A stretch of DNA of 40,746 nucleotides from the NCBI RefSeq assembly GCF_002155965.1, contig NZ_MUMH01000022.1, positions 1 through 40,746 on the forward strand, in the 5' to 3' direction. The position numbers and the translations under genes were made by a program. Within the stretch, counting starts at the first letter, position 1, and each line of letters opens with the position of its first letter. A model generated the notes under the pieces. The model was given only the letters and a program-made list of their open reading frames with translations, searched no databases and was not told the DNA's origin. Of this stretch, positions 27,089 through 39,983 are shown piece by piece. The stretch is from Allokutzneria sp. NRRL B-24872 (GTDB taxonomy: Bacteria; Actinomycetota; Actinomycetes; Mycobacteriales; Pseudonocardiaceae).

Positions 27089-27454
27089 ATGGCTGGTGAC
27101 GGCGAGGTCGAGGTCGGCGAGCTGTGCTCCTACGCGGTGGACGCGTGGGTGGCCGACCCGGCTGTCCTGACCGACGAGCCCGCGCTGCTGCGGCTGCTCA
27201 CCGACGCCGCGCTCGCGGGCGGGGCGAAGATCCTCGGCGAGTCCCGGCACGTCTTCCCCAACGGCGCGGTGACCGCCGTCCTGGTGCTCTCGCAGTCGCA
27301 CCTGAGCATCCACACCTGGCCGGAGTTCAACCTGGCCAACATCGACCTGCTCGCCTACGGCCGGATCAACGCCGAACGCATGATCAGCAGCATCGAGGCG
27401 GGGTTGTCCCCGGTGCGCGCCAACATCTCCCGGCTGCTCAGAGCCACCAGCTGA
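27089..27454 (+). CDS. SpeD-family pyruvoyl decarboxylase-like protein, atypical
   Basis: A 121-residue homologue of the prokaryotic S-adenosylmethionine decarboxylase proenzyme. The self-cleavage region is SQSHLSIHTWPE (68-79). Ser70 is the expected pyruvoyl precursor and His75 is present, but the residue before the serine is Gln rather than the usual Glu. The position of the catalytic Cys (Cys83 of Thermotoga SpeD, in TCG) is Tyr90 (AYG). SpeD homologues with changed active sites have been reported to act as pyruvoyl arginine or ornithine decarboxylases. So it may make decarboxylated SAM for BpsA or a different amine. It starts the polyamine operon, with BpsA 81 bp downstream. Confidence 0.82.
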   Translation: MAGDGEVEVGELCSYAVDAWVADPAVLTDEPALLRLLTDAALAGGAKILGESRHVFPNGAVTAVLVLSQSHLSIHTWPEFNLANIDLLAYGRINAERMISSIEAGLSPVRANISRLLRATS

Positions 27455-27535
27455 ACCCGCTGGTGAGCACGCCGGTTGCTAAGCTCGACGGACCATGTTG
27501 AACAGCACCGCGTTGACCTGTCTGCGATTCGCCTC

Positions 27536-28735
27536 ATGAGCGCCGAGTCGCCGAACACCGGGTCCCAGAACCCTGACCTGGCACTGCTCGCCGAGGTGGC
27601 CGACGCCGTTCGGCTGCAGGAAGGCGAGATGGGCGTCCGCGCCATCCTCCAGGCCTTCCGCCAGCTCGCCCCCGCCCCGACCAGGGCGATCAGCCGCCGC
27701 ACCGGGCTGCCGCTGCCCATCGTGGCCGCGGTCGGCAACGAGCTGCGCAGCCGCGGCCTGCTCGGCGAGGAGCGGCCGTCCCGGCTGACCCCGCGCGGGC
27801 ACGCGCTGACCACCGAACTGGGTGTCGAGCTCAACCTCGACCCGGACTGCTACCGCTGCGGCGGCCTGGAGATCGCCATCCCGGCGGTGCTCAACGAGGC
27901 CGTCGAGCGGATGAAGCGGATCATGGCGGCCGCGCCGGGCGTGAACGTCGCGCTCGACCAGTCGCTGTGCACCGCCGAGACCAAGGTCCGCAGGGTGCTC
28001 GCGCTGATCAGGGCCGGGGTGCTGCCGGGCGGCTCGGTGCTGCTCGTCGGCGACGACGACCTGGTCTCGATCGCCATCGGCGTGGTCAGCGACGTGCTCG
28101 ACGTGCCGTTGGCCAGCAAGGTCACCGTGGTCGACCTGTCAGCGGACATCCTGGAGTACATCGCCGACACCGCCGACACCCTCGGCATCGACGTCGACCT
28201 GGTGCAGCACAACCTGCGCGACCCGCTGCCGGAGGAGTTGCGCGGCCAGTTCGACGCGGGCATGACCGACCCGCCCTACACCGCGGAGGGCGCGAAGCTG
28301 TTCCTCTCCCGGGTGGTCGAGGGCCTGAAGCCGGGTGCGGCGCGCAACGTGCTGTTCTCCTTCGGCGCCAAGGGAACCGAGGAGATGCTGGACGTCCAGC
28401 GGGAGATCCTCGGCCTGGGCCTGGTCACCCACGGGATGATCCGCAACTTCAACGAGTACGAGGGCAGCGGCATCCTCGGCGGCACCGGGTTCCTGCAGCA
28501 CTTGCTCACCACGGCGGAGACCGCGTCCTCGGTGGCGGGCAGCTACGAGGGCCCGCTCTACACCAGGGAGAAGCGCTCCCGGCAGCGCGAGTACGAGTGC
28601 GTCGCGTGCTCGGCGAAGGTCCCCGTCGGCGTGGGCGCCGCGTTCGACTCGGTCGCCGAACTGCGCGAGGCGGGGTGCCCCGAGTGCAAGGGCGGCCCGT
28701 TCCGGCCGTTGCAGCTGGTGGCGGAGTCGGAGTGA
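27536..28735 (+). CDS. Branched-chain polyamine synthase, BpsA family
   Basis: A 399-residue homologue of N4-bis(aminopropyl)spermidine synthase, which in thermophiles adds aminopropyl groups from decarboxylated SAM to spermidine. An N-terminal winged-helix region (about 40-90) precedes the catalytic Rossmann domain, with VGDDDLVS (171-178) and DPPYT (245-249), both BpsA hallmarks. C105/C108 and a C-terminal C355-x2-C358...C381-x2-C384 set suggest zinc binding. The start is uncertain: ATG 27536 lacks a clear ribosome site and an in-frame TTG lies at 27476. The stop overlaps the GNAT start. The true acceptor in a mesophile is unknown. Confidence 0.85.
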   Translation: MSAESPNTGSQNPDLALLAEVADAVRLQEGEMGVRAILQAFRQLAPAPTRAISRRTGLPLPIVAAVGNELRSRGLLGEERPSRLTPRGHALTTELGVELNLDPDCYRCGGLEIAIPAVLNEAVERMKRIMAAAPGVNVALDQSLCTAETKVRRVLALIRAGVLPGGSVLLVGDDDLVSIAIGVVSDVLDVPLASKVTVVDLSADILEYIADTADTLGIDVDLVQHNLRDPLPEELRGQFDAGMTDPPYTAEGAKLFLSRVVEGLKPGAARNVLFSFGAKGTEEMLDVQREILGLGLVTHGMIRNFNEYEGSGILGGTGFLQHLLTTAETASSVAGSYEGPLYTREKRSRQREYECVACSAKVPVGVGAAFDSVAELREAGCPECKGGPFRPLQLVAESE

Positions 28736-29193
28736 CCGCATACGCCGTGCGCCAGGCCGAGGAGCGGGACCTGGACGCGATCGCGGACTTCGAGGTGGAG
28801 ATCGCCAAGATCTCCTTCGGCGACGACGCGGTGGACGATCCGGCGACGCACCGCAAGAAGCTGGCCAACGCGCTGAAGAAGCAGCCTGAGGGGATGTTCG
28901 TGGCCGCGCGCGGCACCGAAGCGCCCATCGGCTGGCTGTGGATGGCGCTGAACACCAACTTCCTCACCGGTGACCGCTACGCCAACTTCCGCTCGCTCGC
29001 GGTCGCGGAGCTGCCGGAGCGGACCGAGGTCGCGGAGCTGCTGCTGGAGGAGGGCCTCGCCTTCGCCGCGCGCAACGAGCTGACCGAGGTCACCGGCAAG
29101 GTGCACGTCGGCAACACCGGCATGCGCTCGCTCTACCGGAAGTACGGCTTCGAGTCGACGCACCTGTCGATGCGCCTGGACATGAGGAAATGA
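28732..29193 (+). CDS. GNAT-fold acyltransferase with degenerate CoA loop
   Basis: A 153-residue GNAT protein: N-terminal VRQAEERDLDAIADFEVEIAK helix, IGWLWMAL strand, NFRSLAVAEL strand beta4, and the C-terminal VHVGNTGMRSLYRKYGFEST motif B. The usual Q/R-x-x-G-x-G/A loop after beta4 reads PERTEVAELL, lacking the glycines that bind the CoA pyrophosphate. It may use an acyl-ACP donor, or hold CoA differently. It overlaps BpsA upstream and the FkbH-like gene downstream by 4 bp each. A polyamine acyl acceptor is my inference. Confidence 0.82.
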   Translation: MTAYAVRQAEERDLDAIADFEVEIAKISFGDDAVDDPATHRKKLANALKKQPEGMFVAARGTEAPIGWLWMALNTNFLTGDRYANFRSLAVAELPERTEVAELLLEEGLAFAARNELTEVTGKVHVGNTGMRSLYRKYGFESTHLSMRLDMRK

Positions 29194-30233
29194 GTTCTGG
29201 CCGCTCGGTGAAGTGCGTCGTCTGGGACCTCGACGGCACGGTGTGGGACGAGGTCGCGGTCGAGGGCGACGGGCAGAGCCTGCCGACGCCGCGGCCGGAG
29301 GTGCTGCGCGCGATCGACGTCCTGGCCGGGCGGGGCATCCTGAGCAGCGTCGCCAGCCGGACCGACCCGTCGCTGCTCGCGCTGCTCACGTCCACCCCTG
29401 AGCTGGCGGAGCGGTTCGTCGCGCCGCAGCTGGGCTGGGGCGACAAGAGCGATTCCCTGCGCCGGATCGCTTCGGAGCTGGGCATCGGCCTGGACACCCT
29501 CGCCTTCGTCGACGACACCGCCTTCGAGCGTGCCGAGGTCGCGGCGCGCGCCCCCGAGGTGCTCGTCCTCTCCCCCTCGGAGCTGGCCGAGCGACTGGAC
29601 GAACCGCCGCTGCTGCCCGAGGTGCTGACCGACGACAGCCGGGCGCGCGTCCGCCGCTACCGCGAGGACTCCGATCGCAAGGCCGCGGCGGCGAGCTTCG
29701 GTGGCTCCCGCGAGGACTTCCTGCGCGACTGCGACATGCGGTTGGCGGTGCGCGAGGCCCGCCCTTCGGACCTGGACCGGCTGGTGGAGCTGGCCACGCG
29801 GACGCACCGGCTCAACTCGACCGGCGAGGTGCCCTCGGCGGAGGAACTGCGCTCGATGCTCGCTTCGCCGGAGTGGTTCGTGCCGGTGGCGAGGCTGACC
29901 GACCGCTTCGGCGACTACGGCATGATCGGCGCCGCGTTGGTGCAGCGCCGGGACGCCGCGTGGCGGGTGCGCCTGCTCGCGCTGTCCTGCCGGGTCGCCG
30001 GGCGCGGGGTGGCGCTGGCGTTCCTGCGCTGGCTGATGGAGCGCTCCGGCTCGGGCGTCGAGGTGCTGATGCGCCCGACCAGCGCGAACCTCGAACTGCG
30101 CGTGCTGTTCCGGCAGTGCGGGATGCGGGTGGTCGAACAGCCCTCGCCCGACCTGGCCGTGCTCGGCGCTCCCGCCGGCACACCGCCCCCGGACGCGCCG
30201 GGCTGGCTGACGATCGTGGAAGGGGACTCATGA
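29190..30233 (+). CDS. FkbH-like HAD-IIIC protein
   Basis: A 347-residue protein with an N-terminal HAD-IIIC domain (VVWDLDGTVWD, nucleophile Asp13 and Asp15; later FVDDTAFERAEV) and a C-terminal GNAT-like acyltransferase half from about residue 195. FkbH-type enzymes take 1,3-bisphosphoglycerate, remove phosphate and load a glyceryl group on the phosphopantetheine arm of an ACP, or act similarly in natural-product pathways. The very next gene encodes an ACP, overlapping by ATGA, which supports this. No polyketide synthase is nearby; instead the operon holds polyamine genes. Confidence 0.87.
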   Translation: MSSGRSVKCVVWDLDGTVWDEVAVEGDGQSLPTPRPEVLRAIDVLAGRGILSSVASRTDPSLLALLTSTPELAERFVAPQLGWGDKSDSLRRIASELGIGLDTLAFVDDTAFERAEVAARAPEVLVLSPSELAERLDEPPLLPEVLTDDSRARVRRYREDSDRKAAAASFGGSREDFLRDCDMRLAVREARPSDLDRLVELATRTHRLNSTGEVPSAEELRSMLASPEWFVPVARLTDRFGDYGMIGAALVQRRDAAWRVRLLALSCRVAGRGVALAFLRWLMERSGSGVEVLMRPTSANLELRVLFRQCGMRVVEQPSPDLAVLGAPAGTPPPDAPGWLTIVEGDS

Positions 30234-30481
30234 GCACGGACGCGGTGGTCCGCGAACTGATCGCCGAGGCCGTCGGCCAAGAGCGGGCGGTCGTGGCCGC
30301 GCTGCCCGGGGACACCCGGCTGTTCGGCCCCGAGATCGGGCTCAGCTCGCTCGCGGGCGCGCGACTGCTGGACTCCGTGCGCGAGCGGTTCGGGGTCGAC
30401 GTCGCCGCCGAGGACCTGAACCTGGACGCGCTGGAGTCCATCGCAAGCCTGTCCGGCTTCGTGGACCGGCACCAGCCGTGA
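30230..30481 (+). CDS. Acyl carrier protein
   Basis: An 83-residue stand-alone carrier protein: an acidic helical fold with the phosphopantetheine site GLSSLAGARLL (Ser40), preceded by LFGPEI and followed by ERFGVDVAAEDLNLDALESI. The usual DSL is SSL here. Coupled by ATGA overlap to the FkbH-like gene, it probably carries a glyceryl or related C3 unit for the operon. A hairpin at 30512-30548 closes the transcript. Confidence 0.88.
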   Translation: MSTDAVVRELIAEAVGQERAVVAALPGDTRLFGPEIGLSSLAGARLLDSVRERFGVDVAAEDLNLDALESIASLSGFVDRHQP

Positions 30482-32565: not shown

Positions 32566-34242
32566 TCATCCCCCAAAGGCAGCAGGGTCAGGAAACTGGA
32601 GGCGACTGTCCTCTAGCGACGCCTCCAGGCTCGCCGCGTCCTTAATCCATTCGCGCATCAGACTCTCCGCGCGCTGGTCGGCAAACTCGAAGGTCGTACC
32701 ACGCTCAGCCAGGCGCAAGGTCTCGACTTCGTCTTCAGCGATCTGTTGGCGAATGTTCAAGATCGCGGCGACACGGCGGATGTCGCTGACGAAATCCAGA
32801 ACTTCCACGTGCGATTTCCCAGGCCGCAGCCGCAAACCGCGGCCGAGTTGCTGGACGAAGATCCGACGGCTGTGCGTCACCCGAGCGAAGCAAAGAATAT
32901 TTACATCCGGAACGTCGACGCCTTCATTAAGAATGTCAACGGCAGACAGAATGGGCGTCTTCCCACTACGAAAGGCCATTAGCCGGGACTGGCGCTCCCG
33001 CTTACTCAGGCCTGCGTGCACAGCGAGCGCCCCTCGCCACTGCGGTACTTCCCCGAGCAGCGCGGCGAGCCGCTCGGAGTGTTCAATAGTGCGACAGAAG
33101 ACCACCGCACGAGGCCGCTGGGTGCGCGCCCAGACTTCTTTTAGTTGCTCACGTACGCCTTCGTCTCGCTCAGGCAGGAAGAGTCGGGAATTGAGATCTT
33201 TGATCGAGTAACTGTGGTCGCTGATGCCGCGGACGAAGTCCCAGTCGATGTTGTCCGCGTAGAGTCGGTAGCGAACCTCGGACAGATAGCCCAGCCGCAT
33301 TCCTTCCTCAATGCCCAGGGTGAAGCTAGGTTCTCCGAATCGCTTGCGGATGTCGAAGCGGTCACCGCGCCACGGGGTAGCGGTGACCCCAAACTGTCGA
33401 CTGGCGTGGAGGATGTCGAGGAGCTCGGCCAATTGGCCATCCTCGGCAACGTGATGGGCCTCGTCGACCATGACTAGAGCCGGACGATAGCCGGCGCGGG
33501 CGTACGAGAGCGCGCTGGCGGCTGTAGCGCAAGTGACCCCACGCAGGTCGTCGGGACGGTGGTCACCCGTCAAGAGTTGGGTGCGTACCGCCTTGGGCAG
33601 GTGGTGCCACAGAGCCCGTTCGAGCTGATCTACCAAGTCCTTGGCCGGGGCGACAACCAAGACCTTGTCCTGGGGGTGTTCTCGTAAGTGGTAGTCGATA
33701 GCTTCGCCACCAACCACGGTTTTCCCGAGGCCGGTGGCCAGGACCAGCAGTGCCCGGTCGGCACTGTTCAAGTCGCACTGAATCTCCCGCAGAGCGTGGT
33801 CTTGATAGGGACGCAGCGAACGGGCAGGGAGCCGATCAGATGTGAAGCGGTTGTCAGCGTAGAGGTCAGCCAGCTCCTGGCCCGACCACAGTTCCACCCT
33901 TATTCCGACTGCGGCGAGGCTATCGCGGCGTTTGCGGGTGTTTGGCCCGAAACGGCTGTTGGTTACCACGACCGCGTGGTCCGCGCCGTAGTGGGCCTTC
34001 GCCGCTAGCACTTCGTCAATGGCGGTGGATGGAACCACCGCGCCCGCCTTCCACTTGGCTTGAAATACCCAGAGGCGTCCCTCCCGGGTGGCAAGGATGT
34101 CACCGCCCTGGTCGTTCGCGCCGTCGATATTTACGACATCGGTGAAGCCCAGGTGCAGTGCGAGGCGCTCCAGTTGACGGGTGAAACCGAACGGTCCCAT
34201 CGCACGGAGGAACTCCGAGGCCACGAATGAGGTGGTCAACAC
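32566..34242 (-). CDS. Mrr-like nuclease fused to SF2 helicase
   Basis: A 558-residue restriction-type fusion. Residues 20-120 are an Mrr-like PD-(D/E)xK domain: GANDQGGDIL with Asp48, then FQAKWK (QxK, Lys63). Residues about 140-520 are a DEAD/DEAH helicase with LATGLGKT (169-175), DEAH (260-263), TATPWRGD and the arginine-finger motif QQLGRGLRLRPGK. It should use ATP to translocate on DNA and cut it. The GTG start directly follows the ATPase stop with no gap. It resembles the helicase-nucleases of predicted MORC-associated restriction systems. Confidence 0.9.
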   Translation of the reverse strand: MLTTSFVASEFLRAMGPFGFTRQLERLALHLGFTDVVNIDGANDQGGDILATREGRLWVFQAKWKAGAVVPSTAIDEVLAAKAHYGADHAVVVTNSRFGPNTRKRRDSLAAVGIRVELWSGQELADLYADNRFTSDRLPARSLRPYQDHALREIQCDLNSADRALLVLATGLGKTVVGGEAIDYHLREHPQDKVLVVAPAKDLVDQLERALWHHLPKAVRTQLLTGDHRPDDLRGVTCATAASALSYARAGYRPALVMVDEAHHVAEDGQLAELLDILHASRQFGVTATPWRGDRFDIRKRFGEPSFTLGIEEGMRLGYLSEVRYRLYADNIDWDFVRGISDHSYSIKDLNSRLFLPERDEGVREQLKEVWARTQRPRAVVFCRTIEHSERLAALLGEVPQWRGALAVHAGLSKRERQSRLMAFRSGKTPILSAVDILNEGVDVPDVNILCFARVTHSRRIFVQQLGRGLRLRPGKSHVEVLDFVSDIRRVAAILNIRQQIAEDEVETLRLAERGTTFEFADQRAESLMREWIKDAASLEASLEDSRLQFPDPAAFGG

Positions 34243-36645
34243 TCACACCGACCCAGCGACGCTCTGGTCAAGCATGTCGAAGGTGATCCGCGCCAGGGAC
34301 AGCTCTAGTCGAGTCTTCGCCCCCGGCTCGGCCAAGAACTCGCCGACCACCTCCAGCGGTCGTACGGTCTGCGTGACTTGCCGTTCCTTGACCGCCGCGT
34401 CGGACCAGCCGCGCCAAGACGTCTTGAACACCGCCCCGTCCAGGAAGTTGGCCGGGCACGCGCGAATCGCGGCCGCGATCCCGGCCGCGTCGAGATGGGA
34501 GACGTAGGCCCCCTCCCTGATGACCGCAGGCCAGTCCAGGGAGGCATCCGCGCGCCCGGCATCGCGCTCCGCGCGCAGCCGGATCTCCTCGGGGAGCGCC
34601 TCCCACAGTTCGCCAGCCATCGACCCGGCGATCGGCGCCATTAGCTCGCGCACTCGCCCCAGCAAGGAATCCGCTCGGTCGCGCAGGGCCGATTCAGTCA
34701 CTCTCTGGTCGGGGAACTGGCGTGTGACCTCGGCAGTGACTGCGGTGATCTTCTGCCCGTCTGGCTCAAAGGCGTGCAGCGTCTGCGCGATCTCCATCAG
34801 CGCGTAGTCCCGCGGATCGCGGCCGTACTCACGAAATACCGGATGCTCGCCGTTGACGAACACCTCCAGGTTCATGCCCTTCCCCATGCGTGCCAGGGAG
34901 GGAACCCGCCGCGCCTCGTCATCCAGCAGCGGCGCCCGCGTGTCAAACACCGTCACGACCCTGCGTCCCAGCCGAGGAAGTGTCACTTCGCCCATCAGGT
35001 CAAAGATCTGACGGGCGTCAACGCGGTATCGCTGGAAGCGTTCCCCCTCAGTCTCCACGCGCTCAGGATCAGAGGACGGAGCAGATGGCTCCGGGGTCTC
35101 GCTGTCAACCTGACCTCCCGAGGTTGGAGTAACCAATGGACTCAACCCGGTGCGCCCAGCCAACGAGGAATCTTCGACCTCGCCAGCTCGTTTCCGCCTC
35201 GCAGGCGCTTCGCCGTTGTCTCGGGCATCATCGTGGGCCAGGACTGCCTGGTACCAGATCTCGTCGGAGAGAAACTCAGGGTGGCGTCCAGAATGAAACT
35301 TAGCGCCCCACTCTCGAGCCGAATCATGGATAGCTGATTTTCCATTTCCAGGAATCAGACTAGCAGCCCCAGGGCGGTTTTCCTGATATCCCTTGAATAT
35401 CTCCCCAAGAGGAGAGGAATTCAACGGATATCCCAGAGCTTCCGCCTTCTTTGGACGCATCGGGCCTTCGCCGCGCAGCACAATGACCGCATGACGCCAA
35501 TCGCGACTCTCTCGACTAAAGTCTGTTTTCTGATAGCCCACCGGGACGTGATCAAGGTGAATCTCTCCCACGATTCGACCCTGAGTAGCAGGAATATCCA
35601 CTGGGTATTCAGTGAGCTGCGTACCGTCATCGGGATTTTCCCACGAGAATAGAGATCGATCCCCGATTCTGATTTTCCTTCCATTGCGCAGGAAATCAAT
35701 CCCATAATCGGTCTCATCCAAATACCGCTGGACGCCGAACCAACCATGGATCCGACGCTCGCTCAACCGCATGTCATCGCCGTCACACTGCGCGCAGCGG
35801 TCCAGGTTGAGGTCCGGACTCTGCCAATGGCCACACTTCATGCAAGCCAGCGCGGAGGTCAACCGGATGTCCACCGACTTCACGGCTGGGATCTCTCGAC
35901 CCTGCTTGGTCACTTTCCGTGAAGCCGACCACACGCAAGGCAATCTCGGCAACACGTTCCTGTCATTCACCTTCAGGCGGAAGCCGCGTCCCGCCATCGG
36001 ACCATCCGGAACGCCTGGGACCGGGTTTTCTCCGCGCAGCAGATACGAATAGACGCGACCTAGATCCCTGCGGATATGGTTGTGCCGATTGGCCTTCTTC
36101 AGATCGTCGACGATCTCGGCACGGAGGCGCCGAACGATCACTTCGGTGCCGTGTTCAGACACATCCTGCTTGGGCTCACGCCGAAGGGGCGCCCGGAAGG
36201 AGTCATTCTGTTGCAGACGGCGCAAGTCAATCTCAACGACCAACCAGTCCGCGTCGCCTGCCCGCGTTGTTCGCACTTCGGTTAGATTTCCCATTCGGGC
36301 TGTGGCGATATTGAAGCCCATACCGAACAACCCTAGACTGCCGTAGCGCCGCTTACCGCTGTACCCGGCTTTCAGCGCGTTTTGCAGCATTTCCAGACTC
36401 ATGCCGCGCCCATTGTCGAGCAAAACTACGATCGGGTCGTCGTCGGCAGGCTTCGGCAGGGTGATCCATACCTCTTGCCGCTCGATGGGATCTGGGTCCG
36501 CGAGGAAGTCATCGAAAGAGTTGTCGATCAGCTCCGCCAGGCACTGCCAGGGCTTGTAGGGAATATCCCCCAGCGCCTCCAACAACTGCGGAGAAGGCGT
36601 GAGGTCCACTTCCTCGTACGAAGATCCCTCAGCGTCGGTCGACAA
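34243..36645 (-). CDS. MORC/Hsp90-type GHKL ATPase of a restriction module
   Basis: An 800-residue protein with an N-terminal GHKL ATPase: AELIDNSFDD (Asn42), LLDNGRGMS (78-83) and GSLGLFGMGFNIAT (102-115). A zinc ribbon follows with C268-x2-C271 and C284-x2-C287. The middle has a Pro/Ser-rich linker, and the C-terminal third is helical and unrecognised. Prokaryotic MORC/MutL-like ATPases of this type are known next to restriction helicases and are thought to clamp or loop DNA. Start is TTG at 36645 with AGGAG 8 bp upstream. Bases 35250-35750 are clearly AT-richer than the surrounding chromosome. Confidence 0.88.
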   Translation of the reverse strand: MSTDAEGSSYEEVDLTPSPQLLEALGDIPYKPWQCLAELIDNSFDDFLADPDPIERQEVWITLPKPADDDPIVVLLDNGRGMSLEMLQNALKAGYSGKRRYGSLGLFGMGFNIATARMGNLTEVRTTRAGDADWLVVEIDLRRLQQNDSFRAPLRREPKQDVSEHGTEVIVRRLRAEIVDDLKKANRHNHIRRDLGRVYSYLLRGENPVPGVPDGPMAGRGFRLKVNDRNVLPRLPCVWSASRKVTKQGREIPAVKSVDIRLTSALACMKCGHWQSPDLNLDRCAQCDGDDMRLSERRIHGWFGVQRYLDETDYGIDFLRNGRKIRIGDRSLFSWENPDDGTQLTEYPVDIPATQGRIVGEIHLDHVPVGYQKTDFSRESRDWRHAVIVLRGEGPMRPKKAEALGYPLNSSPLGEIFKGYQENRPGAASLIPGNGKSAIHDSAREWGAKFHSGRHPEFLSDEIWYQAVLAHDDARDNGEAPARRKRAGEVEDSSLAGRTGLSPLVTPTSGGQVDSETPEPSAPSSDPERVETEGERFQRYRVDARQIFDLMGEVTLPRLGRRVVTVFDTRAPLLDDEARRVPSLARMGKGMNLEVFVNGEHPVFREYGRDPRDYALMEIAQTLHAFEPDGQKITAVTAEVTRQFPDQRVTESALRDRADSLLGRVRELMAPIAGSMAGELWEALPEEIRLRAERDAGRADASLDWPAVIREGAYVSHLDAAGIAAAIRACPANFLDGAVFKTSWRGWSDAAVKERQVTQTVRPLEVVGEFLAEPGAKTRLELSLARITFDMLDQSVAGSV

Positions 36646-36954
36646 GGTGTAACTCCTGTCTGAGATGTTGTTCTGGCTCTAGTCCACCCCAGGCAAGAGA
36701 TACAGCGCGGCACCGACAACTAGGGTGACGCGGCCGACTGGACAACGGCGGACGCACGAGCGGACCGCTGGATCGTATCGACGCAGATCCGTCCGCTCCA
36801 CAGTTCTAGTCGGACTGGCGCTAGTACCGTCGCCTACCTTAGGCAAGCACTTGCAGACGATCAGCTCGTGTGACGACGCCTCCGCTTGCCAAGCGGCCGT
36901 CAACCCACGGTCCAGTGACCGCACCACCCCTGTGCATCCGAACAGAAGCTGGGA
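36646..36954. other. 309-bp gap inside the defence island
   Basis: No gene supported. A short inverted repeat CCGCTT-GCC-AAGCGG (36882-36896) could end the Vsr transcript. On the minus strand TTGTCC (36745-36740), a 17-bp spacer and TAGTTG (36722-36717) could be a promoter for the ATPase-helicase module, giving a leader of about 65 nt. Confidence 0.4.
36717..36745 (-). promoter_or_regulatory. Putative promoter of MORC-helicase module
   Basis: Minus-strand TTGTCC and TAGTTG are 17 bp apart, about 70 bp upstream of the TTG start of the ATPase gene. The last -10 base deviates from TANNNT. Confidence 0.35.
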
Positions 36955-37746
36955 TCAACCCCTAGCAGACGTGACCGACCGTTGGAGTCGTCCAGCACGG
37001 ACCTCTCGCTCGACGCGCTCGGCTGCCAAGTCGGGGTTTTCATGCTCCCAAACTCGGATCACCTGCCAACCGGCAGCAGACAGCATTTCATTGGTTTCGA
37101 GGTCTCTGGCGCGATTGCCCTCGATCTTCTCGCGCCAAAATTCCGCCTTCCTGACAGCGGGGCGGTAGTGCTCCGGACAGCCGTGCCAGAAACAGCCATC
37201 GACGAAGACCGCTACCCGAGCGCCCGGGAACACCAGATCTGCCGTACGTCGGATCTCGATGAGCGGCCTCGCGTCGACGCGGTAGCGGAGGCCGCGCCCG
37301 TAGAGCAGCTTACGGAGTGTCAGCTCAGGTCGGGTGTCCTTACCACGATTTGCCCGCATGGACGCGCGGACCTCCAGCGAGGACGCACTCGACTCGGGAG
37401 GCAGCGGCTCTTCGACCAGAAGGTCCATGTCCCACGCACGCTGCCACGCTTCAGCCAGGTTCTTTCCTCTGGAGTCATGCTCGACCTCGCAAACGTACCG
37501 TTCCCGAGTCTTGCCATCCTGCGACCAGCGCAGGTAGGCACGGATACGTCGAGTACTCCTATACAGCCGCAGACTGATCGAGGCTCGCGCGAAGCGCCCA
37601 TCTCCCAGCGCGACGCTGCGCCGGTTGTGGCCTCCCGCAGCCCGGTCTTGTTCAATAACCGGCGCGACGCCGCCCACGCGCCGCTTGTAGGCCCGCTCCG
37701 GGGGGAGCCGCGCCTTCCAATGTCCTTGCCCCTCTGTCCGCGGCAT
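36955..37746 (-). CDS. vsr: Vsr-family mismatch endonuclease with long N-terminal extension
   Basis: A 263-residue protein. Residues 128-260 are a complete Vsr domain: MRANRGKDTRPELTLRKLL, TADLVFP (catalytic Asp170), VFVDGCFWHGCPEHY (His188, His193), FWREKIEGNRARD and GWQVIRVWEHE. Vsr nicks 5' of T in T:G mismatches left by deamination of 5-methylcytosine. The first 125 residues are not part of E. coli Vsr (about 156 aa in total) and include a basic, strand-rich segment (ISLRLYRSTRRIRAYLRWSQDGK). The gene lies 3 bp behind the C5 methyltransferase, the standard partnership. Confidence 0.93.
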   Translation of the reverse strand: MPRTEGQGHWKARLPPERAYKRRVGGVAPVIEQDRAAGGHNRRSVALGDGRFARASISLRLYRSTRRIRAYLRWSQDGKTRERYVCEVEHDSRGKNLAEAWQRAWDMDLLVEEPLPPESSASSLEVRASMRANRGKDTRPELTLRKLLYGRGLRYRVDARPLIEIRRTADLVFPGARVAVFVDGCFWHGCPEHYRPAVRKAEFWREKIEGNRARDLETNEMLSAAGWQVIRVWEHENPDLAAERVEREVRAGRLQRSVTSARG

Positions 37747-37749
37747 CCG

Positions 37750-39111
37750 TCAGTGTCCCGCCGTGGTGAGGGCATCGGCGACGGCGTTCGCGAAGAACTC
37801 GCCGAGCACGACCGGAACCGCGTTGCCCAGTTGCCGCATCTGCTCGCCCCGAGGTCCGGAGCCGAGCCACTCGTCAGGAAAAGTCATCACTCGGGCGGTC
37901 TCGCGCACCGTCATATAGCGGTGCAGGTAGGTCCAGCCGTCGGCCGACTTGGAATCGGGGACACGGTCATCCAGCAGCATCACGGACTCGCCGCCTGGCA
38001 CCCCGTGCACGCCAGCCTTGACCGTCTTCGCGGGTTGGTCGAGTTCATTCGGCGTATGCCCCTTGTATATTCGCGCGCCGGGCCATCCGATGTGGTCGAC
38101 GATTCCACCACTCCCGAAGTCGTGCTTCTCCTCAAGGCGGCTCAAGTCGACCTCTGGCAGCGCGGGTAGCTTGGCGCCAGTGCCAAAGCCCGCGACCGCG
38201 TCGCGCAGCGTGCGCCAAGGCTGGCAGTCGTCCTCCTTGACCACCTTCGGTAGCCGAGCCCGGACCCGATCCTTTACGTGACCTGGCACCTGATGGTGGC
38301 GCTGCCAGTACGGACCGTTCTCGTCCTTCATAGATCGCAGCAGAGCGGCCTCAGAGAACTTCGGCGTCCTGACATACTTCGTGAATGCTTCGATGTCGAC
38401 GCCGAGGTCGGCACGGAAGGCGACGAGAACGACACGGTTTCGCACCTGCGGGACGCCGTAGTTGGCGGCGTTGACCGGCACCATCACGACCTTGTAGTGA
38501 TCGGGGTCGCTGTCTTCGTCAGGCAGCCGCCGGAGAATGCCAGCCAGATGGGCATCGTGGTCCTGCCACCTCACCTCGCTGTCGCGCTTCTCGAACGGAA
38601 GGCGAAGTTCGTTCTGGATGTACTGGAAGTACTCGGCGAACGAGGGTCGAAGAAGGCCCCGGACGTTCTCGCAGATGACGGCCTTTGGCCGGATCTCGCG
38701 GACCGCCTTGAACATGGCGGGGAACATGTTGCGTTTGTCCTCGTCGCCCTTGGCCACGCCTCCGGCGCTGAACGGCTGGCAGGGCGGACCTCCAGCGAGG
38801 ACGTCCACCTCGCCCTCAAGGGCGCTCATGTCAAGGTCGCGCACGTCTCCCGGATACAGGGGAGCGGGTTGGCCCGGCTCCGGAGGTTCAGGCCTCGTCC
38901 CCTCGACTCGGATCAGGCCGTCGACGCCCAGAGTCTTCCGCGCGCTAGCCACCAGGGTCTCGCAGGCACGGTTGTTGAACTCGTTGAATAGGAGCGGGCG
39001 GAAGCCCGCCTGGTGGACCGCCATGGCAAGCCCACCCCCGCCAGCGAACAGCTCAACACTGGTACGCGACTTCTCTGTGCCCTCAGGCCGGTTCGCTGAT
39101 CGCTTCGCCAC
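37750..39111 (-). CDS. DNA (cytosine-5) methyltransferase
   Basis: A 453-residue C5 methyltransferase. Motif I is VELFAGGGGLA, motif IV GGPPCQPFS with the nucleophilic Cys at about 111, motif VI VICENVRG, motif VIII PQVRNRVVLVAF, and motif X GEQMRQLGNAVP. It transfers methyl from SAM to a cytosine in a short target, protecting against the partner nuclease. The target recognition region is roughly residues 260-390. The GTG at 39111 appears leaderless; a TTG 6 bp upstream is an alternative. The divergent gene encodes an Eco29kI-like nuclease, so a CCGCGG-like target is plausible but unproved. Confidence 0.94.
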   Translation of the reverse strand: MAKRSANRPEGTEKSRTSVELFAGGGGLAMAVHQAGFRPLLFNEFNNRACETLVASARKTLGVDGLIRVEGTRPEPPEPGQPAPLYPGDVRDLDMSALEGEVDVLAGGPPCQPFSAGGVAKGDEDKRNMFPAMFKAVREIRPKAVICENVRGLLRPSFAEYFQYIQNELRLPFEKRDSEVRWQDHDAHLAGILRRLPDEDSDPDHYKVVMVPVNAANYGVPQVRNRVVLVAFRADLGVDIEAFTKYVRTPKFSEAALLRSMKDENGPYWQRHHQVPGHVKDRVRARLPKVVKEDDCQPWRTLRDAVAGFGTGAKLPALPEVDLSRLEEKHDFGSGGIVDHIGWPGARIYKGHTPNELDQPAKTVKAGVHGVPGGESVMLLDDRVPDSKSADGWTYLHRYMTVRETARVMTFPDEWLGSGPRGEQMRQLGNAVPVVLGEFFANAVADALTTAGH

Positions 39112-39117
39112 TCGCAA

Positions 39118-39123
39118 ACCGTA
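39118..39123 (-). promoter_or_regulatory. Putative -10 of C5 methyltransferase gene
   Basis: Minus-strand TACGGT fits TANNNT and ends 6 bp before GTG 39111, giving a leaderless mRNA. A CCGCGG hexamer at 39124-39129 lies in the spacer region of this promoter. Confidence 0.45.
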
Positions 39124-39187
39124 CCGCGGAGCGTTTCGAACGCTCGTTCGCCTACCTAGTTCAGCGTGTCGCGTTGAACGACGCCGG

Positions 39188-39193
39188 TACCCT
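39188..39193 (+). promoter_or_regulatory. Putative -10 of GIY-YIG nuclease gene
   Basis: TACCCT ends 7 bp before GTG 39201, giving a leaderless mRNA. No clear -35 is visible. Confidence 0.45.
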
Positions 39194-39200
39194 CAGCCCG

Positions 39201-39983
39201 GTGGCGAGTGATCAAGAGCCAGCAGAGGCCCCGGCGACCGGCGAGTTCAGGCTAAGCATCATGCGAGCACTCGCCGATCAACTGGCGGACGGCCTACGCG
39301 CCCTCAAGCCTGCTCCCCTCGATCTCGAACACCTGGCCGACGTGTACTCCAAGCCGGGCGTCTACCAGCTCTACCAGAACGACGTACTCGTCTATGTCGG
39401 CAAAGACGAGAGTTCGGTGGCCAACCGCCTCCGAGAGCACTACGACAAGATCAAGTGTCGTTTGAAGATCACACCGATAGAGATGTCATTCACCGCGTTG
39501 TACGTACACGAGGACCTGCACTCGGTCGCACCTGAGAGGCGGCTCATCGCGTCGTACAAGGAACAAGGACTAGCAGCATGGAACGGTAAGGGGTTCGGCC
39601 CACACGACCCGGGCAAGCATCGGGACGAGACGGCCTTCGGACCCGACCACTTCGACACGATGTATCCCGCGAATCTTCACTGGACGTGCAAAGAAATCGC
39701 AATGGGGACCTACACGGCAACTAATCTTTTGCAGCAAGTGAAGAAAAACGTTCCATTCGTATTCCGCTACAAGAAGGCCGATTTTCACAGGGGAATTGAA
39801 GTCACGGTTGACTGGGAAAATCCGACCGCCGACGAACTGTTCGAGCTGCTCGGCCAAGCGATCAACGCGGTCGGCCCGGACTGGCAGATCATCGCACTTC
39901 CCGGCTATGCGATCATGTACGACAAGCGGACTCAATACCCAAGCGCACGCAAGCGGTACCCGTACACCGGCTCAGTGGCATAA
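39201..39983 (+). CDS. Eco29kI-like GIY-YIG restriction endonuclease
   Basis: About 260 residues. The GIY-YIG core is GVYQLYQND (Tyr55) and VYVGK (Tyr65), then RLREHYDKI (Arg76, His80), PERRLIASY (Glu112) and WNGKGFGPHDPG (Asn128). This Y-Y-R-H-E-N order and the GFG-x2-DPG tail are typical of the Eco29kI family of type II enzymes, which cut CCGCGG. The C-terminal region is unassigned and AT-richer (39680-39840). The GTG at 39201 fits a leaderless promoter; an in-frame TTG upstream is less likely. It is divergent from the C5 methyltransferase, as expected of a restriction-modification pair. Confidence 0.88.
   Translation: MASDQEPAEAPATGEFRLSIMRALADQLADGLRALKPAPLDLEHLADVYSKPGVYQLYQNDVLVYVGKDESSVANRLREHYDKIKCRLKITPIEMSFTALYVHEDLHSVAPERRLIASYKEQGLAAWNGKGFGPHDPGKHRDETAFGPDHFDTMYPANLHWTCKEIAMGTYTATNLLQQVKKNVPFVFRYKKADFHRGIEVTVDWENPTADELFELLGQAINAVGPDWQIIALPGYAIMYDKRTQYPSARKRYPYTGSVA

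Follow-up and report, generated by a model that had tools for sequence, protein, structure and literature searches.

A conserved five-gene cassette of actinomycetes that links BpsA- and SpeD-type polyamine enzymes to an FkbH-like protein and an acyl carrier protein, and may make N-acylated aminopropyl polyamines

The branched-chain polyamine synthase BpsA of Thermococcus kodakarensis is the closest described relative of one half of the locus considered here; the available text of a recent review calls its GDDD motif indispensable and states that its acidic C-terminus carries the aminopropyl group (PMC12979288). The other half recalls the FkbH proteins, one of which, acting with a standalone acyl carrier protein (ACP), is proposed in the sections available to supply the glyceryl-ACP used for tetromadurin (PMC7489565). 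We analysed a 40,746-nucleotide stretch of DNA from Allokutzneria sp. NRRL B-24872 (assembly GCF_002155965.1, contig NZ_MUMH01000022.1, positions 1 to 40,746 of the forward strand; hereafter the window), in which homologues of both systems stand together in a compact cassette of five genes and about 3.4 kb. A preliminary description of this sequence had proposed the gene order SpeD, BpsA, GNAT, FkbH-like, ACP at 27089-30481, and our analysis confirms it, with all five genes on the + strand.

We propose that the cassette makes an N-acyl aminopropyl polyamine through the transfer of an acyl group from the ACP to an amine, a reading to which we give a rough probability of 0.55. The SpeD homologue would produce decarboxylated S-adenosylmethionine (dcSAM), from which BpsA would transfer an aminopropyl group to an amine of primary metabolism. 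The FkbH-like protein would dephosphorylate a small phosphorylated acyl donor and load its acyl group on the ACP, and the GNAT domain, either fused to BpsA or co-translated with it, would then pass that group to one of the polyamine's amines; for the acyl group, glycerate or another C3 acid is what we would guess by default. Each of these reactions, and the order in which they would follow one another, is what we infer, and for the amine acylation we favour a GNAT domain that takes acyl-ACP as its donor. A more specific proposal is that actinomycetes make an undescribed class of metabolites, the N-acylated aminopropyl polyamines, with a bifunctional BpsA-acyltransferase that would be served by an ACP loaded by a non-glyceryl variant of FkbH, a direct union of carrier-protein chemistry with polyamine biosynthesis; we put it forward tentatively, at rather less than even odds.

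A conserved five-gene unit

The five-gene cassette is a real and conserved unit: we observed directly which gene families it holds, that their order is conserved, that they occur together, that two of them share a frame in many genomes and that motifs are retained. BpsA, GNAT, FkbH and ACP lie on one strand in 30 of the 34 loci examined, which represent 30 genomes of three bacterial families; the other four (L061, L062, L071, L075) reach a contig edge before GNAT. In this count L060 and G487 are a single locus, and L057 (Actinobacteria bacterium) is grouped with Streptomyces. In 25 of the 30, SpeD is found at most 1 kb from the cassette; the other five genomes (four Crossiella, Goodfellowiella) carry it at a different site. 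Even G249, a member of the third family whose BpsA is only 42% identical, has the whole five-gene set. The preliminary description had held that its proposal would fall if the gene order were not conserved in relatives; order and strand recur in these 30 genomes, which takes the cassette beyond chance.

Co-occurrence points the same way, since the same 6 of 394 genomes of the host's class, G249 among them, hold orthologues of both SpeD (E up to 1e-18) and BpsA (E up to 1e-45), and the five genes fall inside about 5 kb in all six. Within the host's family, a BpsA orthologue is present in 9 of 150 genomes, from three genera, and any homologue in 94. When genome contigs were scanned for BpsA, the best 80 of 353 relatives were taken further, and these comprised 25 at 61% identity or more, two loci in metagenome-assembled genomes (MAGs) at 41% and 53 paralogues at 34-40%. 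The alignments drawn from these loci hold 21 rows (A2, which omits L068), 17 rows (A3, which omits L057, L064, L067, L068 and L069) and, for the ACP, 19 rows (A4, which omits L064, L067 and L068).

The exact 4-bp overlaps given earlier for the BpsA/GNAT, GNAT/FkbH and FkbH/ACP junctions are present at all three. The accompanying statement that the genes follow one another without gaps is true of the last four; SpeD and BpsA are separated by 81 bp if the ATG at 27536 is the start of BpsA, whose frame is open from 27467, with an alternative TTG at 27476.

The aminopropyl half and its fused acyltransferase

The BpsA-type gene (27536..28735, +, with its stop at 28735) scores 130.8 bits against Pfam BpsA_C (cut-off 27), and its product matches PDB 5xnc, an N4-bis(aminopropyl)spermidine synthase, with an E of 3.7e-29. 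It carries the motifs GDDD and DPPY and ends in a Cys-rich segment. GDDD is read in all 26 of the 27 cassette or MAG loci in which that column is covered; because this catalytic motif is kept, aminopropyl transfer is likely, and the enzyme likely uses dcSAM for it. The acidic cluster that serves as aminopropyl carrier at the C-terminus is absent, judged by eye, and in its place the Cys-rich segment is followed either by a stop or by a linker and GNAT, so the mechanism may differ in detail.

Among the 53 BpsA paralogues 51 read GDHD; the other two read GDDD, and both are in one Woesebacteria MAG, beside a SpeD match. The GDHD form is widespread in actinomycetes (51 of the 53 loci L076-L128), with no SpeD match in the locus and, in the 16 loci compared, three of them reported, no conserved neighbours; it is probably not a dcSAM enzyme. 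A copy related to this paralogue lies at G000:C2:49076-49945. We suggest the presence of GDDD with SpeD, versus GDHD without it, as a sequence marker to separate likely aminopropyltransferases from the BpsA look-alikes of actinomycetes.

In the window the GNAT acyltransferase gene (28732..29193, +, GTG start) overlaps BpsA, and the two genes are separate in 8 of the 30 genomes (Allokutzneria, Crossiella). In 20 of the 30 they share one open frame, a predicted fusion whose linker is often rich in Pro and Ala, and in two drafts (L068, L069) the frame is broken. That so many genomes encode both in a single frame ties the acyltransferase to the polyamine enzyme. The preliminary description had called the operon fused, which is literally so of BpsA and GNAT in relatives, and not so in this window. 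In a BpsA tree of 27 rows, five of the 53 paralogues included, the clade with split genes (100/99) joins the fused Goodfellowiella (100/98) and is nested inside fused lineages; the divergent G249 is fused as well. This nesting makes the fusion look older than the separate genes of the window's lineage, and suggests that the 4-bp BpsA/GNAT overlap of the window arose when a fused enzyme was later divided, in a tree whose long branches are flagged.

The SpeD gene (27089..27454, +), which encodes a homologue of the pyruvoyl S-adenosylmethionine decarboxylases, was assigned from Pfam AdoMet_dc (77.5 bits, cut-off 25), from an alignment with the Thermotoga maritima structure 1tlu and from a table of residues; it falls slightly under the cut-off of the NCBIfam AdoMetDC equivalog (71.3 versus 75.65 bits). 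The equivalents of T. maritima Ser63, which forms the pyruvoyl group, and of the processing residue His68 are kept, and QSH or ASH, together with HTWPE, occurs in all cassette copies tabulated. Of the 22 genomes reached by locus, 19 have no PF02675 match other than a cassette-type SpeD, which makes it the likely source of dcSAM there; as a SpeD homologue it would supply dcSAM to the cassette. The identity of the acceptor is less constrained: two actinobacterial MAGs, with SpeD(Tyr)-BpsA(GDDD) pairs at L073:5465-7134 and L074:5547-6918, gave no match to PF01564 (spermidine synthase), with the proviso that such assemblies can have gaps, and BpsA could therefore act on an acceptor other than spermidine.

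A second cassette-type SpeD lies in a separate cluster in Streptomyces phaeoluteigriseus, Streptomyces sp. IBSBF 2953 and OV320 (L148:4851-13671; parts in L149 and L150). In L148 the genes near it encode an ACP, a phosphopantetheinyl transferase, a B12-radical SAM protein and a remote BpsA_C protein that reads GDDE. The transferase and the radical SAM protein (whole only in L150) recur, as does a protein of 582 aa, but no BpsA-like gene was found in L150 or in L149, which is cut by a contig end.

The acyl half and the competing interpretations

The FkbH-like gene (29190..30233, +, ATG start) encodes a HAD-IIIC phosphatase domain and a GNAT-fold C-terminal domain with the motif SCRVAGRG, and passes NCBIfam FkbH TIGR01686 at 199.6 bits (cut-off 146.65). 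In its AlphaFold2 model (predicted local distance difference test score, pLDDT, of 87.1) the HAD half matches MDP-1 and 3slr, and the other half has a GNAT fold by Foldseek. We compared 18 of the 30 cassette proteins with 28 of 35 non-cassette matches from one bacterial family, 33 of the 35 being over the cut-off; the cassette proteins form a clade of their own (100/99) in a midpoint-rooted tree in which the 28 include a more distant clade. D13, D15, T17, K86, D108, D109, S266, C267 and R268 are kept in all 18, and SCR[VI]AGRG in 29 of the 30 cassette frames. With the HAD residues and this cysteine retained, the protein likely has a working phosphatase half and an active cysteine, and C267 would be the residue that carries the acyl group.

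The ACP gene (30230..30481, +, ATG start) has the phosphopantetheine site GLSSLAG and scores 31.1 bits against Pfam PP-binding (cut-off 20.8). Ser40, the site of attachment, is invariant in the 19 aligned ACPs, and G249 also has Ser. The (S/T)-S-(L/M) site is shared with four of five ACP-like matches beside non-cassette FkbH genes, in a comparison of neighbours where 7 of 30 loci matched and two of the seven were the cassette itself.

The usual GNAT coenzyme A (CoA) loop at motif A reads [QR]xxGx[GA]. The cassette GNAT scores 29.2 bits against Pfam Acetyltransf_1 (cut-off 20.7) and has a plain GNAT fold (AlphaFold2, pLDDT 86.7; Foldseek), and its Foldseek matches, many of them to general GNATs, include one to the polyamine acetyltransferase DpA. 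The loop was found at motif A in none of the 30 cassette GNATs, and two regular-expression matches lay elsewhere in the protein; its absence would fit, without proving, an acyl-ACP donor.

A number of observations nevertheless weigh against an N-acyl polyamine product. In the MAG loci L073 and L074 (BpsA at 41%) SpeD and BpsA stand as a pair, and the 1.5 and 4.3 kb that follow contain none of GNAT, FkbH and ACP; the polyamine half therefore does not require the acyl half. The Cys83 position of the cassette SpeD is Tyr in 29 of 30 genomes, the window's included, and Cys in G249; in T. maritima SpeD this residue is described as essential for processing and catalysis, and the same source, in its available parts, uses two SpeDs per genome as a flag for altered substrate (PMC10407285). 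A second, canonical-like SpeD is present in 8 of the 9 Allokutzneria, Crossiella and Goodfellowiella genomes. In the FkbH-like protein Q207 is replaced by R, R299 by A and N58 by T or S in 18 of 18, at positions invariant in all 28 others, and H229, present in 27 of those 28, is not conserved. The G249 GNAT retains the Gly-x-Ala half of the CoA-loop motif, and the step from acyl-ACP to the GNAT domain is one that we infer from linkage and the missing motif only.

Several other interpretations must be weighed against these facts. The preliminary description had the ACP-bound group as glyceryl, and this is a special case of the pathway that we propose: the ACP would receive D-glyceryl, drawn by FkbH from 1,3-bisphosphoglycerate, and the GNAT would make an N-glyceryl branched polyamine. 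An FkbH score well over the cut-off, the retained HAD residues and SCRV cysteine, an ACP site like that of four of five found beside other FkbH genes and the tetromadurin precedent all speak for it. But the claim is weakened by the Arg at 207 and Ala at 299, together with the changes at 58 and 229, in proteins whose counterparts are nearly uniform there. The protein may use a donor other than 1,3-bisphosphoglycerate, and because N58, Q207 and R299 are replaced throughout we do not claim glyceryl specificity; we regard the special case as somewhat unlikely. At the opposite end of the pathway, the Tyr at the Cys83 position could mean that the cassette SpeD is a neofunctionalised amino-acid decarboxylase that provides the amine acceptor, with dcSAM coming from elsewhere. 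SpeD-derived decarboxylases are known in Actinomycetota, in genomes that, in the text available, lacked ordinary arginine and ornithine decarboxylases (PMC10407285), and the window's genome does have a second SpeD, carrying Cys, about 0.5 kb before its only PF01564 match. However, the cassette SpeD is the only one in 19 of 22 locus genomes, yet BpsA keeps GDDD where covered, and the G249 copy keeps its Cys; a neofunctionalised SpeD thus seems improbable to us.

Less probable again is assembly on the carrier itself, in which an ACP-bound acyl or amino-acyl group would be the aminopropyl acceptor and the GNAT would release or cap the chain. The three genomes with a second cassette-type SpeD bring this to mind: the L148 copy is near an ACP, a BpsA_C protein and a phosphopantetheinyl transferase, a cluster which indicates that ACP and BpsA can pair without FkbH. 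But that pairing was seen once, its BpsA_C protein is remote (30% over 109 aa) and uncharacterised, and the five-gene unit has no amino-acid-loading enzyme. The resemblance of the GNAT fold to DpA would also suit an ordinary acetyl-CoA-dependent polyamine acetylase, with the FkbH-ACP pair serving an unlinked pathway. We rank this lowest in probability, for FkbH and ACP accompany BpsA-GNAT wherever the locus is uncut, in 30 genomes of three families, no other gene recurs in the 26 loci compared, and the CoA-loop motif is missing from motif A. An ACP-to-amine acyl transfer on an aminopropyl polyamine is, in our judgement, the best explanation of the cassette.

The surroundings and the described relatives

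To the left of the cassette in the window lies a gene for a SpoIIE-type phosphatase that has a response-regulator domain, and to its right one for a nucleoside hydrolase; neither recurs at the cassette in other genera. When the open reading frames (ORFs) of 26 loci from four groups were compared all against all, with results for seven reference loci, no further gene recurred between genera around it; apart from an isolated 61-bit match to a single locus, everything that recurred was one of the five genes or a shadow ORF of one. A transporter, regulator or oxidase as an additional pathway gene was rejected, since none recurs in that comparison, and so was spread by plasmids, since 72,556 plasmid records searched at E up to 1e-10 contained no match to BpsA. 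The earlier remark that no polyketide or peptide synthase is present agrees with a scan of 30 other window ORFs, a chosen selection, in which no domain of a polyketide synthase (PKS) or nonribosomal peptide synthetase (NRPS) was matched. Elsewhere in the window a cytochrome P450 gene stands beside a terpene synthase family 2 gene (309-2622, - strand), and a restriction-like island (32566-39983) holds Mrr-helicase, GHKL ATPase, Vsr and C5-cytosine methylase genes and a weak Eco29kI endonuclease match under its cut-off.

Our searches of the open-licence PMC literature, which leave subscription literature outside their scope, found no published description of the cassette. They returned no paper joining FkbH with polyamine, with or without acyl carrier protein, and none joining branched-chain polyamine synthase with Streptomyces, or BpsA and branched-chain polyamine with Actinobacteria; the terms "actino" and "Streptomyces" are absent from the available text of the 2026 review of branched polyamines (PMC12979288). 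If our proposal is true, acyl-carrier chemistry and aminopropyl polyamine synthesis would here be joined in one pathway for the first time, as far as these searches show, and the FkbH-ACP pair would have a role beyond the polyketide and peptide assembly lines.

Each described relative shares a part of the cassette. Its BpsA is homologous to that of T. kodakarensis (PDB 5xnc) over about 260 residues, GDDD included, but it is an actinomycete protein with a Cys-rich tail and overlaps, or is in frame with, a GNAT. As in the SpeD-SpeE pathway, including the fusions of S-adenosylmethionine decarboxylase with aminopropyltransferase described in the accessible part of PMC11107197, a supply of dcSAM is paired with an aminopropyltransferase, whereas here the BpsA fold replaces SpeE and acyl-carrier chemistry is added. 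The polyamine N-acetyltransferases DpA and SpeG have the GNAT fold in common with the cassette enzyme, which differs in its lack of a CoA-loop motif at motif A and in its linkage to ACP and FkbH. The NRPS-loading FkbH domains of vioprolide, suomilide and corramycin place glycerate on a carrier domain, as far as the sources at hand describe them, whereas the cassette has standalone proteins, a polyamine enzyme and no NRPS. Finally, with the FkbH glyceryl transferase-phosphatases and dedicated ACPs of the methoxymalonyl and tetronate pathways, in the portions available of PMC7489565, the cassette shares the HAD-IIIC and GNAT-fold domains, the SCRV cysteine and a standalone ACP. It differs from them in that no dehydrogenase, FabH-like enzyme or PKS was found with it, and in an FkbH-like protein that is changed at 58, 207, 229 and 299 and stands in a clade of its own.

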